Source of the DNA: Candidatus Bathyarchaeota archaeon
GTDB taxonomy: Archaea > Thermoproteota > Bathyarchaeia > Bathyarchaeales > Bathycorpusculaceae
Direction of reading: 5' to 3'
DNA length: 36,902 nt
Assembly (NCBI GenBank): GCA_026014545.1
Contig: JAOZIH010000011.1
Span: 1 to 36,902, forward strand
The translations under genes and the position numbers were made by a program. How positions within the stretch are numbered: position 1 is the first letter of the stretch; every line of letters begins with the position of its first letter. The notes under the pieces were generated by a model, which saw only the letters and a list, made by a program, of their open reading frames with translations, had not been told where the DNA came from and ran no database searches. This document shows, one piece after another, positions 3,303 to 22,319 of this stretch.

Positions 3303-3338
3303 ACAAAAGCATGTGTGCCTCTTAGGAGACGGCATGAA

Positions 3339-4736
3339 GTGCTTAAGTGCATTCGATGCGGCGCAGAATTCCCGACCTACCCCTTAAGAAGTAACTGCGA
3401 AAAATGCGGGGGAATATTAGAGTACACTGGAGACGCCGTTAAAATTGCGGGAGTACAATTTTCTGGCTCTATGGGCTTCTGGAGATATAAGCCGCTGCTT
3501 CCATCTGTCCATAACACTGTAAGTTTAGGTGAGGGCGGAACACCCTTACACAAAGCTGAAAGATTAGCAAAGAATCTCCGTTTGAGAGAGCTTTACTTGA
3601 AAGATGAAACACGCAACCCTACCAATTCGTATAGAGACCGTGCTGCTGCCCTTCTGACATCTAATGCACTTGACAAAAAATTTGACACGTTGATATGCGC
3701 CTCAAATGGGAATATGGGCGCCTCATTGGCTGCTTACTCAGCGAAAGCAGGGTTAATCTGCCATGTTATTGTTCCAGAAATAGTTGATATGGGAAAGCTA
3801 GCACAAATGATTGCCTATGACGCGATCATCGAAAAATCCGGTGAAATTCTCGATGACGCAATACGCAGGGCCGTGGCTATGGCGGAGGAAACAGGCTGGT
3901 ACCAAGCCACAGCGGAATTGAACCCGCTTGTAATCGAAGCACAGAAAACGATTTCTTATGAAATCTGCGAGCAGTTCGGTGTTCCAGAATGGGTTTTAGT
4001 GCCCATGGGAAGCGGTGGCACAATTTATTCTATCTGGAAAGGCTTCAAAGAGCTAAAGCAATTGGGCATCGTTAATTTGTCTCCAAAAATTGTAGGCGTT
4101 CAACCGGAAGGATGCGCCGCCATAGTCGATGCGTTGGCTAAAGGCGCTTCAGAATCCGCGAAAATCCAGAAACCATCCACGCGGGCGCTCGCCGTTCTAG
4201 TGGCGAAGCCCTTGCAGAGCGAATTAGCTATAAAGGCAATCAAGGAATCAGATGGCTTGGCTTTAAAAGTTTCAGACTCTGAGATCCTAAGCGCAGAGCT
4301 GCAGATAGCTAAGACAGAAGGTGTTTTCGCTGAACCTGCAAGCGCTGCAACAATCGCTGCACTAAAAAAATTGGCCGAGGCGGAGAAAATCTCTGGGGAT
4401 AGCAGTGTCGTGTGTCTTATTACGGGTAGTGGACTTAAAGCAACTGATGTACTGCAAGCGCTTACTAAGAAGCAGAAGACCGCTGTTATAGGCTTAGAAA
4501 TAAGCACGAAAGAAAAAATCCTCAGGATTCTCAGCCAAAAAGACAGTTACGGTTATGATTTGTGGAAAAGCTTGGGGAAAACTATGACTCGCGCTGCTAT
4601 CTACCAGCATTTGAATGAGTTGACAGAGAGGGGATTGATTGTGGCTTACGAGAAGAGCGGGCGACGGTTCTTTCGTATATCGGAGCGTGGAAGGAAGGCT
4701 CTTGCGGCTATTGATGACTTAAAACTTTTAATTTAG
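3339..4736 (+). CDS. Threonine-synthase-like PLP-fold protein fused to a C-terminal winged helix
   Basis: A 465-residue protein. Residues 1-40 form a CxxC...CxxC zinc ribbon (CIRCGAEF, CEKCGG), as in archaeal threonine synthases. Residues about 60-385 are a fold-type II PLP domain: NPTNSYRDR, SNGNMGASLAAYSA, the phosphate loop GSGGTIYS and a final ITGSGLK. Threonine synthase converts O-phosphohomoserine to threonine, but the residue expected to be the PLP lysine (NPTGSFKDR in the family) is Arg99 here, codon AGA. Residues about 386-465 form a PadR-like winged helix (EKILRILSQKDSYGYDLWKS, then RAAIYQHLNELTERGL). The start is GTG with AGGAGA nine bases upstream; the open frame extends to 3000 but overlaps the TPR gene and looks non-coding there. 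It may be an active ThrC, a divergent paralogue, or a PLP-sensing regulator. Confidence 0.85.
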   Translation: MLKCIRCGAEFPTYPLRSNCEKCGGILEYTGDAVKIAGVQFSGSMGFWRYKPLLPSVHNTVSLGEGGTPLHKAERLAKNLRLRELYLKDETRNPTNSYRDRAAALLTSNALDKKFDTLICASNGNMGASLAAYSAKAGLICHVIVPEIVDMGKLAQMIAYDAIIEKSGEILDDAIRRAVAMAEETGWYQATAELNPLVIEAQKTISYEICEQFGVPEWVLVPMGSGGTIYSIWKGFKELKQLGIVNLSPKIVGVQPEGCAAIVDALAKGASESAKIQKPSTRALAVLVAKPLQSELAIKAIKESDGLALKVSDSEILSAELQIAKTEGVFAEPASAATIAALKKLAEAEKISGDSSVVCLITGSGLKATDVLQALTKKQKTAVIGLEISTKEKILRILSQKDSYGYDLWKSLGKTMTRAAIYQHLNELTERGLIVAYEKSGRRFFRISERGRKALAAIDDLKLLI

Positions 4737-4750
4737 GCGGCAAAAGTTTA

Positions 4751-4774
4751 ATAGTATAGTTATAACTATACTAT
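4751..4774. promoter_or_regulatory. Perfect 24-bp palindrome, candidate operator
   Basis: The half-site ATAGTATAGTTA is followed at once by its exact reverse complement. The palindrome lies 14 bp after the stop of the winged-helix fusion and 14 bp before the ATG of the ECF S component. Its centre is about 26 bp upstream of that ATG, where a TATA box would sit for leaderless transcription, so a bound dimer would block TBP/TFB. No T-run follows, which argues against a terminator. Confidence 0.6.
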
Positions 4775-4788
4775 GCCGGTGTGCTTAC

Positions 4789-5322
4789 ATGAACAAGCAA
4801 GCCGCCTTACGTACGCCTCTTAAAATAGCCCTATCCGCAGTTCTCGGCGCACTTGCCGCTGCCGTAACAATTTCATTCGTAATACCCATACCCGCAACAA
4901 GCGGCTACTTCAACCTTGGCGAAGCAATAGTCTACATATCAGCGCTCATCTTCGGACCTTTCGTGGGCACCTTTACAGGAGCCAGCATAGCAATAGCAGA
5001 CATTCTTGTTCCCGGAGCAGCCCAGTTTGCCCCTGGCACGCTGCCGATCAAAGGTCTCGAAGGAGCTATCGTCGGCATTCTGTTCAAAAAGCTACATAAG
5101 CACATCGCGAACACTGGTTTATGTGCCTCCATTTCTGTCGTGGTCGGCGGTTTAGAAATGATAGCAGGCTACTTCATCTACGAACAACTATTTCTTAGCT
5201 ATCCAATGGAAGCCGCCTTAGTGGAGGTCCCGTTTAATATTGTGCAAATGGTTATTGGCTTGATCATAGCAGTGCCAGTGATGTTCATGGTTCAGCGTGT
5301 TTTCCCACAACTTAAAAGCTAG
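4789..5322 (+). CDS. ECF transporter S component (substrate-binding membrane protein)
   Basis: A 177-residue protein with about six hydrophobic segments and almost no soluble domain. The FNLGEAIVYISALIFGPFVG segment, followed by a GAS..IADIL loop, is typical of S components of energy-coupling factor importers, which bind a vitamin or cofactor precursor and work with EcfA/EcfT. No EcfA or EcfT gene is in the window, so a shared (group II) energizing module is likely. The substrate cannot be read from sequence. The ATG follows a GGTG at spacing eight. The gene is preceded by the palindrome and followed after 29 bp by the HypE-like gene, with which it probably forms an operon. Confidence 0.8.
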   Translation: MNKQAALRTPLKIALSAVLGALAAAVTISFVIPIPATSGYFNLGEAIVYISALIFGPFVGTFTGASIAIADILVPGAAQFAPGTLPIKGLEGAIVGILFKKLHKHIANTGLCASISVVVGGLEMIAGYFIYEQLFLSYPMEAALVEVPFNIVQMVIGLIIAVPVMFMVQRVFPQLKS

Positions 5323-5351: not shown

Positions 5352-6359
5352 ATGAAGCTTCCACCCGGCAAAATCCCCGTTGACATTCTGAAAGAAGTTG
5401 TTTTCAAAAACTTAGGCGCAACCCGCAAAGAAGTCATCATAGGCCCCGCCGCTGGAATCGATGGCGCAGTCTTAGACATAGGCGATAAATCACTGATAGC
5501 CTCAATGGACCCAATCACCGGCGCAGTGGAGCGCATAGGCTGGCTAGCCGTCAACGTGAACGCTAATGACGTAGCCACTTTCGGCGTTGACCCCGCCTTT
5601 CTATTCTCATGTATGCTGCTGCCAGAAAACGCGGACAAAGCGCTCGTTGAAGCCATAAGCAGCCAGATGAACGCGGCTGCAAAAGACCTCGGCATCGCCA
5701 TAGTAGGCGGACACTGCGAATCCACACCAAGCTTAACAAACCCTATAGTTGTAGGCTGCATAATTGGCTTAACAGCGAAAGGCTGCTATGTCACCGCAGG
5801 AGGCGCAAAAGCCGACGACAAGCTCATATTAACGAAAAGCGCGGGAATAGAAGGCACTGCTATACTCGCCACTGACAGAGAGCCTATGCTCAAGAAAGCC
5901 ATGGACGCGCAGATGCTTCAGGCGGCAAAGAGCTTCTACAACCAAATAAGCGTGGTAAAAGACGCGTTAATCGCCTATCGGACAGGCGGCGTCCACGCCA
6001 TGCATGATCCAACCGAGGGCGGCGTAGCAGGCGGCATCCACGAGATGGCAGATGCCTCAAATCTAGGCGTAAAAATCTTCAGAGAAGCAGTTCCAGTTCA
6101 ACCTGAGACAGCGCGAATCTGCGGCATCTTCCAGATTGACCCGCTGCAGTTAATCAGCTCAGGCGCGCTGCTCATTGCCGCAGAACCAGAAAGCGCCGAC
6201 GCAATAATCTGCAGCCTAAAGCGCGAGCAGATTCCAGCCGCAGTCATTGGCGAATTCACAGAAAACACGCGACAAAGAGTGCTCATAAAGGAAGACGGCG
6301 TGGCGGAGGCGCTACCGCGGCCGTTATCAGATCATCTTTGGGTTGCGTTGAGGCGTTAA
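5352..6359 (+). CDS. AIR-synthase/HypE-like protein lacking the PRIC tail
   Basis: A 335-residue member of the PurM/HypE/ThiL/SelD fold family. HypE-like motifs include GIDGAVLDIGD, SMDPITGAVERIGWLAVNVN (HypE has DPITG...IGWLAVHVNAND), NANDVATFGVDP, IVGGHCE and HDPTEGGVAGGIHEMA. HypE makes the thiocyanate group of [NiFe]-hydrogenase from a C-terminal PRIC cysteine; this protein ends in ...HLWVALRR and has no such cysteine, so it should not do that chemistry. It may be an ATP-dependent phosphotransferase of unknown substrate, perhaps tied to the cofactor imported by the preceding S component (inference). Its last 33 bp overlap the 3' end of the convergent glycosyltransferase gene. Confidence 0.85.
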   Translation: MKLPPGKIPVDILKEVVFKNLGATRKEVIIGPAAGIDGAVLDIGDKSLIASMDPITGAVERIGWLAVNVNANDVATFGVDPAFLFSCMLLPENADKALVEAISSQMNAAAKDLGIAIVGGHCESTPSLTNPIVVGCIIGLTAKGCYVTAGGAKADDKLILTKSAGIEGTAILATDREPMLKKAMDAQMLQAAKSFYNQISVVKDALIAYRTGGVHAMHDPTEGGVAGGIHEMADASNLGVKIFREAVPVQPETARICGIFQIDPLQLISSGALLIAAEPESADAIICSLKREQIPAAVIGEFTENTRQRVLIKEDGVAEALPRPLSDHLWVALRR

Positions 6360-7106
6360 GAGATTTCTGGCGCCGTGGATGGAAAGCTGTAGAAACCACT
6401 GGATCATAAAAATCGGGTAATAAAAGATGTAAGAGTACAGATGCGAATAAAGCACGCCGCATCTAAAGTCCACAATAGCCTGCGAGACGCCATTCTGCAG
6501 GCTCCAGTTCGCTGGGGGTTTGAAATGCAAACAGAAAATGTCGTCGCCAACCACTATTTTGTAACCTTTCGCTTTTATCCAATTGATTATGTATGCGTCT
6601 TCGTAAGCATGCAACTGCTCAGGAATATGGATGTCCTCTACAGCCTCGCGACGAATAAGTGTATCATGCATCCCGCCTCTTAGACTAAAACATTGCCTGG
6701 CGACAAGGCTCTGCAACTTTAAAATGCGTTTATCTTTCATGTTAGGGATAACGTCGATGTTTACGCCCCAGACTGCGCCGACGTCGGCGGCTAAATGTCG
6801 CTCAGCATTTCTGAACCAGCTTCTGCTGAGGATTACATCGCTATCGACAAACATGAACCAGTCGGTGGTAATCTGCCGCAGTCCTTTTTCTCTTGCACGT
6901 GCTCTTGAGCCTTCCACGGCTATAACCTTAACATTCCCATATTTCTTGTTGAATTCTTCGACAATTTTCAGGGTGCGGTCAGTTGAAAAACCATCCACTA
7001 CTATCAAGTTCTTTACAGGCACATTTCGATAAACAGATGCCAAGCACCTATCAAGCAAGTGCTCGCTGTTCTTCGTAAGCACCACAACATCTATCGACTG
7101 CACCAT
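6327..7106 (-). CDS. Family 2 glycosyltransferase, paralogue A
   Basis: A 259-residue GT-A fold enzyme. The N-terminus has the nucleotide-sugar fold (VVVLTKNSEHLLDRCLASVY, DGFSTDRT) and a VDSDV DxD-type metal motif near residue 94. A hydrophobic C-terminal segment (YSYIFYYPIFMIQWFLQL) could attach it to the membrane. It probably transfers a sugar in surface glycan or protein glycosylation. It is a clear paralogue of the gene at 7220..7960, with which it shares a 54-nt stretch differing at one base. The two lie in tandem 113 bp apart. Its end overlaps the HypE-like gene by 33 bp. Confidence 0.88.
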   Translation of the reverse strand: MVQSIDVVVLTKNSEHLLDRCLASVYRNVPVKNLIVVDGFSTDRTLKIVEEFNKKYGNVKVIAVEGSRARAREKGLRQITTDWFMFVDSDVILSRSWFRNAERHLAADVGAVWGVNIDVIPNMKDKRILKLQSLVARQCFSLRGGMHDTLIRREAVEDIHIPEQLHAYEDAYIINWIKAKGYKIVVGDDIFCLHFKPPANWSLQNGVSQAIVDFRCGVLYSHLYSYIFYYPIFMIQWFLQLSIHGARNLLTPQRNPKMI

Positions 7107-7219
7107 TGTACCACTTCATGCTTCTTCTTTTGAAAGTCCACTTGATAAACGGTAATGTATGAAGCCAATTAGAAAATAAGAGTTTACCCAGATTCATCCT
7201 AAAACAGGCAGCGGAAACG

Positions 7220-7960
7220 CTACCTGCGCCGTTGGTTCTTCCTTTTGATAAAAAGTTGATAAAGCGAATATGCAGTGTAAAAGCCGTATGCAAGTGTTAA
7301 TTTAGCCAGCAAAGTTAGTTTACCAGCGCTGATTGCATCGGATATTATGCTTAAGCTTCCGCGAAGAGTCCAGACGCTTTCAGGGCGATAATGAATGCAG
7401 AAGGGATCATAACATGCAACCAGCTTGTAGCCTTTCCGCGTTATCCAATCCTTAATGTAAGCATCCTCGAAAACATGAAGATTCTTTGGGATTTCTATGT
7501 CTCTAACCGCTTCTGTGCGGATAAGCGTATCATGTGTTCCGCCCCTGATGTCAAATATTTTCCGTGTTATCCATAAAAACAGCTTAAGAATCATGGAGCT
7601 TTTGATGGTAGACCAAACTTCGATACCCCAGACTGCGCCGACGTCGGCGGCTAAATGTCGCTCAGCCTTTCTGAACCAGTCTTCGCTTAGAACTACATCA
7701 CTGTCAACGAACATGAACCATTCTGTTTCCACGTGGCTTATGCCCTTCTGCCTTGCTGTGGCGCGATTTCCCTTGTCTTGAAGCAGCAGGACGTTTCCAT
7801 GCTTACTATGAAACTCCTGTAGTATATCCAATGTTTCATCAGTTGAGTATCCATCAATAATGATTAGGCGGTTGACTGGAACATTGCGATAAACAGATTC
7901 AAGGCATTCTCTAAGCATTCTTTCGCTATTTTTTGTAATTACTACCACATCAACAAGCAT
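7220..7960 (-). CDS. Family 2 glycosyltransferase, paralogue B
   Basis: A 246-residue GT2 enzyme with the same architecture as its downstream neighbour: VVVITKNSERMLRECLESVY, DGYSTDET, VDSDVVLSEDWF, then RGGTHDTLIRTEAV and EDAYIKDW. The acceptor-side half and the C-terminus differ more than the N-terminus, suggesting different acceptors. The tail has one moderately hydrophobic segment followed by a basic KRKNQRRR end. The donor sugar is unknown. The gene is divergent from the radical SAM gene at 8194 and is probably the first of the two-gene GT unit. Confidence 0.88.
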   Translation of the reverse strand: MLVDVVVITKNSERMLRECLESVYRNVPVNRLIIIDGYSTDETLDILQEFHSKHGNVLLLQDKGNRATARQKGISHVETEWFMFVDSDVVLSEDWFRKAERHLAADVGAVWGIEVWSTIKSSMILKLFLWITRKIFDIRGGTHDTLIRTEAVRDIEIPKNLHVFEDAYIKDWITRKGYKLVACYDPFCIHYRPESVWTLRGSLSIISDAISAGKLTLLAKLTLAYGFYTAYSLYQLFIKRKNQRRR

Positions 7961-21171: not shown

Positions 21172-22227
21172 CTAAAACAGTGCGTAGGGAAAACGTGAAC
21201 CCGTCGGATGCAGCCGCCCCTTTATTGGAATCGCGTGTCCGCATACTGGGCAACGCATGTCCTTAGTTAGGTTCCACCGTGTAATCTCGAAGCTATACCG
21301 CTTAATTACGAGTTCATTGCAGTTTGGGCAGTAAGTGTTCTCCGCCGGATGCCCCGGAACATTGCCGAGGTACACGTAGTTTAGCCCAGCGTTTTTCGCG
21401 GTCATATACGCTTTCTCCATGGTCTCAACCGTTGTAGCAGGCGTCAGCGTCATTTTATAATCTGGATGGAAACGCAGCAGGTGGAAAGGCGTGTCTCGGC
21501 CCAGCACATCTTTAATCCATGTTGCCATCTCTTTTATCCTGTCCATTGAATCGCCAATTTTTGGAACCACCAAGTTTGTGATTTCGATGTGGACGCCGTT
21601 CCGCTTAAGCTCCTTTAGCGATTCATAGATTGGCTCAACAGTGGGAACCGCGGAGTAACTCTTGTAGAAGTCCGGGTCGCCGCCGCCCTTGAAATCAACC
21701 GTGGCCGCGTCCAAGTAAGGCGCAATCGTCTTCACAGCTTCAGGAGTCATATACCCGTTCGTTACGAAAGTGTTGAATAAACCGACTTGATGAGCAATTT
21801 TGGCGGTGTCATACGCGTACTCCATGAAAATCGTCGGCTCAGTATACGTGTAGCTTATCCCGTGGCAGTTCTGCTCTCCAGCTGCCTTCACGACCTCCGC
21901 AGGCGGGAAAAGCTTGCCTTCCACTTCACGTTCTTGGCTTATCATCCAATTGTCGCAGAATTGGCAGCGGAAGTTGCAGCCAGCCGCAGCGATGGACAAG
22001 ACTAACGCGCCGGGGTTGAAATGGGAAAGGGGCTTTTTCCCTATGGGGTCCACGGCGGCAGAAACCGCTTTCGCATAATTCAGCGAGTAAAGCGTGCCGC
22101 CCTCGTTTTTCCTGACTAAACAAAAGCCTGTTGCGCTATCGCTTATTAAGCATCGGCGCGCGCACAAGTGGCATTTTACCTTCTTATCCTTCTCCTTTTT
22201 GTAGAGCATAGCTTCATGAAGAGACAT
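21172..22227 (-). CDS. amrS: AmmeMemoRadiSam system radical SAM enzyme
   Basis: A 351-residue protein. It starts MSLHEAMLYKK, followed by CHLCARRC, the typical AmrS N-terminus, the radical SAM site CNFRCQFC, then GISYTYTEPTIFMEY, FVTNGYMTPEA, VDFKGG and HLLRFHPDYKM. The C-terminus has two CPxCxx pairs (CPNC, CPVCG), a probable zinc ribbon. AmrS is the radical SAM partner of AMMECR1 and MEMO1 proteins; the reaction of the system in archaea is not established. I start at the ATG at 22227; a GTG at 22236 is in frame. The gene leads an operon with the PflX-like gene and is divergent from the hydrolase gene. Confidence 0.93.
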   Translation of the reverse strand: MSLHEAMLYKKEKDKKVKCHLCARRCLISDSATGFCLVRKNEGGTLYSLNYAKAVSAAVDPIGKKPLSHFNPGALVLSIAAAGCNFRCQFCDNWMISQEREVEGKLFPPAEVVKAAGEQNCHGISYTYTEPTIFMEYAYDTAKIAHQVGLFNTFVTNGYMTPEAVKTIAPYLDAATVDFKGGGDPDFYKSYSAVPTVEPIYESLKELKRNGVHIEITNLVVPKIGDSMDRIKEMATWIKDVLGRDTPFHLLRFHPDYKMTLTPATTVETMEKAYMTAKNAGLNYVYLGNVPGHPAENTYCPNCNELVIKRYSFEITRWNLTKDMRCPVCGHAIPIKGRLHPTGSRFPYALF

Positions 22228-22319
22228 GTCACACACTTCCCGTTAAAACGCTTCTAGCATAAACATGCCTAATTATGTAGCTTATTTCTTAAAAACTGTT
22301 AGCTCATAAAATCGGCGTT

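Follow-up and report, generated by a model that had tools for sequence, protein, structure and literature searches.

A threonine-synthase-like protein fused to a PadR-type winged helix, a probable regulator of vitamin B6 acquisition in Bathyarchaeia

The window analyzed here, a stretch of 36,902 nucleotides from a Candidatus Bathyarchaeota archaeon, encodes at positions 3339–4736 of its forward strand a threonine-synthase (ThrC)-like protein fused at its C-terminus to a PadR-type winged helix. We consider it probable that this protein is a PLP-sensing transcription repressor of vitamin B6 acquisition, built from a catalytically dead threonine synthase. Evidence for the putative regulon and the candidate DNA site comes from several independent sequence comparisons, and we infer that PLP is the ligand, that the protein binds DNA and represses, and the direction in which it responds.

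Architecture and distribution of the fusion protein

The reading frame is uninterrupted from a GTG start at 3339 to a stop at 4736 and encodes 465 amino acids; AGGAGA at 3324–3329 is a plausible ribosome-binding site. The initial annotation had read a zinc ribbon, a PLP-enzyme fold, and a C-terminal winged helix in this single frame, and all three are borne out. The zinc-ribbon cysteines (C4, C7, C20, and C23; positions 3348–3407) are unchanged in 26 of 26 aligned homologs, true ThrCs among them. A fold-type II PLP domain (PALP, PF00291) spans amino acids 61–363 (positions 3519–4427; E-value 1.4e-77), and the Pfam PadR model matches amino acids 394–456 above its gathering score (E-value 3.6e-9; 36.9 versus 27 bits). 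In a model predicted by AlphaFold2 from an alignment of 25 sequences (mean pLDDT 88), a ThrC-like body is followed by a disordered linker (amino acids 378–387) and a winged helix (amino acids 390–464; positions 4506–4730). The first-ranked Foldseek match of the whole fusion protein is Bacillus subtilis threonine synthase. The ThrC-type fold-type II PLP fold expected of a threonine synthase is thus present according to Pfam, AlphaFold2, and Foldseek. The C-terminal 82 amino acids, modeled separately, yielded a pLDDT of 91.6 and matched crystal structures of PadR proteins (TM-score about 0.78–0.83). The frame has no stop between the two domains, which the initial annotation had named as a finding that would refute the fusion. 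A sequencing error does not account for it either, since full-length homologs with 61–77% identity exist in dozens of independent genomes.

The initial annotation had proposed a search for this fusion in other archaeal genomes, and it does occur there. A profile of the C-terminal part, covering the junction and the winged helix, identified it in 82 of 300 Thermoproteota genomes (about a quarter; E-value ≤ 1.6e-22), and PadR-like proteins that stand alone were clearly set off from these hits. One further copy was found in a Lokiarchaeon (L018). In a quick maximum-likelihood tree, all fusions lie on one side of a branch and form two well-supported sets, which differ at the position of the catalytic lysine discussed below. 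One set has a hydrophobic residue or threonine there, and the other has arginine, with lysine-bearing copies nested inside it.

Loss of catalytic residues

The initial annotation did not mention that the lysine which forms the Schiff base with PLP is missing. Where ThrC has NPTGSFKDR as its PLP-lysine motif, the window protein has NPTNSYRDR, with Arg99 (codon AGA, positions 3633–3635) in place of the lysine. Within the window's subgroup, all Bathyarchaeia fusions that could be read at this position have arginine. Among 120 sampled fusions the residue is R in 57, L in 28, K in 16, I in 11, M in 3, T in 3, and V and A in one each, such that 104 have no Schiff-base lysine. Unfused ThrCs have lysine in 45 cases, with one undetermined.

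A second set of residues is lost as well. The window's genome encodes a separate, intact ThrC (L068), whose N205, S206, and R211 are aligned with A192, E193, and V198 of the fusion protein (positions 3912–3932). By their offset, we take this triad to be equivalent to the site in Thermus ThrC that holds the phosphate of O-phosphohomoserine. The triad is present in 30 of 30 true ThrCs and is broken in all aligned fusions, lysine-keeping ones included; its arginine occurs in none of 98 fusions in a thinned alignment. The PLP pocket, by contrast with these losses, is largely retained. Asn125, Gly224, Gly226, and Thr362, which are expected around PLP, are retained in nearly all fusions by alignment column counts. 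Judged by these residues, the fusion protein is not a threonine synthase, and it is most likely a catalytically dead enzyme in this archaeon and in many of its relatives. Because most of the pocket is kept and the catalytic residues are lost, the likeliest behavior of the protein is noncatalytic binding of PLP, of a PLP adduct, or of PMP.

The 16 lysine-keeping fusions (L126–L134, L108–L112, L114, and L018) come mainly from the Bathyarchaeia families f14 and f17, in addition to the Lokiarchaeon. They lack the substrate-phosphate arginine and form a natural contrast set for covalent versus non-covalent sensing of PLP.

Vitamin B6 genes and a candidate operator

Directly downstream of the fusion gene lies a gene (4789–5322, forward strand) for an ECF transporter S-component of the PdxU/HmpT family (PF07155; E-value 3.6e-26), a proposed binder of a B6 vitamer. 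Its only relative in the PDB by sequence is 4hzu, which we take to be HmpT from Lactobacillus brevis. The substrate of HmpT has been identified as pyridoxamine (PMC4860826), and PdxU and PdxU2/HmpT belong to PF07155/COG4720 (PMC9997740). Archaeal S-components are like HmpT in keeping the equivalents of the ligand residues E41 (E or D), Y120, N140, and Q143, and unlike it in having mostly lysine for H84 and mostly glutamate for Q87. Two of the six ligand residues of HmpT are thus changed in these S-components, and the vitamer may therefore differ. In the window's S-component the residue equivalent to H84 is K88; this change from histidine to lysine is seen, along with glutamate for Gln87, in 71 of 83 archaeal S-components.

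This association is widespread. A PF07155 gene lies within 1.5 kb of the fusion in 74 of 120 sampled copies, and pdxS, encoding PLP synthase, adjoins it in seven (six are transcribed away from the fusion out of a common intergenic region, and one lies in tandem; three families). Several sampled fusions have no recognized partner within 1.5 kb, and one (L013) has neither S-component nor palindrome beside it. PdxS itself is absent from the window's genome, which is 98% complete, by a search that was positive in 10 of 14 control genomes. The organism is therefore probably dependent on B6 uptake; its genome encodes EcfT-like proteins. PdxS occurs in 11 of 82 fusion carriers as compared to 132 of 218 other genomes, counts that ignore relatedness.

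The next gene, conserved downstream of the S-component, encodes a kinase-like protein of the AIR-synthase (AIRS) superfamily (5352–6359, forward strand) that is distinct from the ThiL-like, HypE-like, PurM-like, and PurL-like genes of the genome. No clear PdxK/ThiD-type kinase was found in the genome, in which the only matches were weak ones to NnrE/NnrD-like and PfkB-like proteins. The AIRS-superfamily protein is therefore a candidate for a vitamer kinase of a new type. Next come two paralogous family-2 glycosyltransferase genes in tandem (6327–7960, reverse strand), and such genes adjoin the B6 module in many Bathyarchaeia loci. Farther along the window is a radical SAM enzyme of the AmmeMemoRadiSam system (21172–22236, reverse strand; above the NCBIfam cut-off).

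The fusion gene and the S-component gene are separated by a palindrome, to which the initial annotation had drawn attention. It is real and perfect, 24 bp in length (ATAGTATAGTTATAACTATACTAT, 4751–4774; 22-bp core, 4752–4773), and we propose from sequence comparison that it is the operator for the fusion protein. It is conserved in relatives, with TAGTATAGTTNNAACTATACTA found again before the S-component gene at almost every Bathyarchaeia locus inspected. Where the 3′ end of the fusion gene is intact, the palindrome lies by the S-component at every Bathyarchaeia locus but one. Where an insertion parts the two genes (L002), the palindrome stays by the S-component, and S-component genes that are remote from the fusion or on another contig still carry it (L093, L095, L096, L097, L098, and L118). 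Within the window's genome the palindrome is unique at up to three mismatches, and a regulon extending beyond the S-component operon was rejected for this genome on that ground.

The link also holds between genomes. Among the genomes of the class listed with a site at no more than one mismatch, all 38 carry a group-A fusion, which 72 of 251 genomes have (Fisher 2.6e-25, phylogeny ignored). A site also occurs just upstream of pdxS, 3–18 bp before the frame, in five of five group-A genomes that have pdxS, and it is perfect in one of these (G228). We scored these sites with a position weight matrix trained only on S-component sites, preselected within three mismatches of the consensus. The pdxS sites scored 13–36, as compared to a 99th percentile of 3.2 across 928 other upstream regions, and 11 pdxS genes from genomes without a group-A fusion scored at background. 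Forty-four aligned operators are preceded by an A-rich stretch and then TTTAA or TTTAT, resembling BRE and TATA elements. In the window the corresponding box, AAAAGTTTAA (4742–4751, forward strand), abuts the palindrome and is the putative promoter. An operator directly against a TATA-like box is an arrangement typical of repressor sites in archaea.

A single universal palindrome for all fusions was rejected, as the hydrophobic-residue clade has other intergenic motifs. In L086, L087, L101, and L102, which belong to this clade, the intergenic region that separates the fusion from pdxS holds a different conserved element, CCATATATGGG...ATATAT, possibly a second type of operator.

Proposed regulation and relation to known proteins

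In the mechanism that we propose, the ThrC domain, having neither the Schiff-base lysine nor the residues that hold O-phosphohomoserine, would bind PLP, a PLP adduct, or PMP without catalysis, PLP being held without a lysine aldimine. The PadR-type winged helix, probably as a dimer, would contact TAGTATAGTTNNAACTATACTA. With the palindrome placed after the TATA-like box and ahead of the S-component gene, and in relatives also ahead of pdxS, bound protein would block the site of initiation. Plentiful PLP would thus switch off initiation of B6 uptake, and also of synthesis where pdxS exists, and scarcity of PLP would cause the protein to release the DNA. We propose PLP as the ligand on the basis of the conserved pocket and the logic of the regulon, and the sign of regulation on the basis of the position of the site.

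The initial annotation had suggested a regulator of threonine or vitamin genes. The vitamin part is upheld by the PF07155 and pdxS genes that neighbor the fusion or carry operators. Threonine regulation was rejected; among the neighbors, for which the specific search covered thrC, the only threonine gene seen is a divergent thrC in one Bathyarchaeia family, with no recognized operator between it and the fusion. In that family (f2; L089, L091, L098, L099, L107, L137, L138, L139, and L184), the thrC beside the fusion is intact, and the pair is perhaps a relic of duplication or under shared control.

The effector might instead be an amino acid, a PLP–amino acid adduct, or another phosphorylated small molecule occupying the old active site of a DNA-binding regulator of B6 genes. 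The pocket has indeed been remodeled, given the replacement of the lysine by arginine or hydrophobic residues and a changed asparagine loop (T138 to M, L, or H), and GabR and similar MocR proteins answer to PLP plus an amino acid (PMC5320631). Yet the genes in the regulon concern B6, whose natural signal is PLP, and the residues expected at the PLP ring and its N1 are retained. We consider such an effector unlikely.

Regulation of another vitamin, either thiamin/HMP or riboflavin, is improbable. Pfam labels PF07155 a riboflavin family, the gene after the S-component belongs to the ThiL (AIRS) superfamily, and a ThiD-type kinase is among those without a clear match in the genome. Against this, pdxS has an operator or a fusion beside it in several lineages, the regulator itself has the fold of a PLP enzyme, and a separate ThiL-like gene exists elsewhere in the genome.

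Very improbable, too, is an active enzyme, whether threonine synthase or another that uses PLP, to which a regulatory or moonlighting DNA-binding domain has been added. The window protein passes the NCBIfam thrC cut-off (214 versus 167 bits) and resembles the “threonine synthase” PRK05638, and the lysine is kept in the 16 fusions noted above. But the other 104 of the 120 have lost it, the substrate-phosphate residues are gone from all, and the genome has its own intact ThrC. TIGR00260 (thrC) accepts both the lysine-less window protein and L102, in which the lysine is leucine, and NF004170 (PRK05638) also scores lysine-less fusions as threonine synthase. The best PRK05638 matches in the phylum (G382 and G288) are the same fusion with arginine at the lysine position. 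It is likely, then, that the NCBI threonine synthase models PRK05638 and thrC misname a large family of probable regulators across Thermoproteota.

That the palindrome is an RNA element, namely a leader hairpin or a terminator of the fusion gene, is likewise very improbable: it can fold as a hairpin (z −2.1) and follows the fusion stop codon in most genomes, but it goes with the S-component or pdxS rather than with the fusion when these are apart, abuts a TATA-like box, has mostly A-C and other non-wobble mismatches at its asymmetric positions, and occurs with overlapping second copies, all of which is operator behavior and disfavors the RNA reading.

The preferred reading, a PLP-sensing repressor, invites comparison with bacterial PdxR, a MocR-type protein of the GntR family with an N-terminal GntR domain, a fold-type I aminotransferase domain, and regulons that hold pdxST, pdxK, and pdxU (PMC5320631). 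Genome context, the conserved operator, and the loss of catalytic residues give good support to the MocR-like logic suggested at the outset, in which a PLP-enzyme fold is tied to a winged helix. A regulon of B6 synthesis and transport is likewise indicated in sequence by operators at or adjacency to S-component and pdxS genes. However, the fusion has a fold-type II ThrC fold, a PadR-type domain at the C-terminus, usually no Schiff-base lysine, and an archaeal host, and the fold-type I aminotransferase with N-terminal GntR winged helix-turn-helix that defines MocR/PdxR is lacking. The family is therefore not a member of PdxR/MocR: it has another fold, its DNA-binding domain is of another family, and the two domains stand in the opposite order.

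To ThrC, including PRK05638, the fusion is similar in its fold, N-terminal zinc ribbon, and most of the PLP pocket, and dissimilar in the missing lysine and substrate-phosphate residues and the additional DNA-binding domain. It shares with PadR-family regulators the PadR-fold winged helix and a palindromic operator (here a candidate), but PadR proteins are usually stand-alone and small, whereas this winged helix is fused to an enzyme-derived sensor. No fusion family, fold-type II transcription factor, or archaeal B6 regulator of this kind was found in the open-licence literature, and one may be described elsewhere.

With somewhat less confidence than for the protein itself, we favor the view that it represents a class of archaeal factors in which a lysine-less fold-type II enzyme serves as a non-covalent PLP sensor of B6 uptake and synthesis, a class widespread in Thermoproteota, found in at least one Lokiarchaeon, convergent with PdxR, and named threonine synthase in databases. 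The misnaming affects threonine pathway calls in archaeal genomes. The findings also lend support to a role of PF07155 proteins in B6 transport in archaea, a point at which B6 biology has a recognized gap (PMC9997740). Regulation of B6 has so far been known in bacteria, from unrelated proteins. If our reading is true, Archaea, from which the best-known bacterial regulators of this kind, MocR/PdxR, are reported absent (PMC5320631), would have a dedicated B6 regulator, and a PLP enzyme of another fold would have been turned into a regulator through loss of its lysine.
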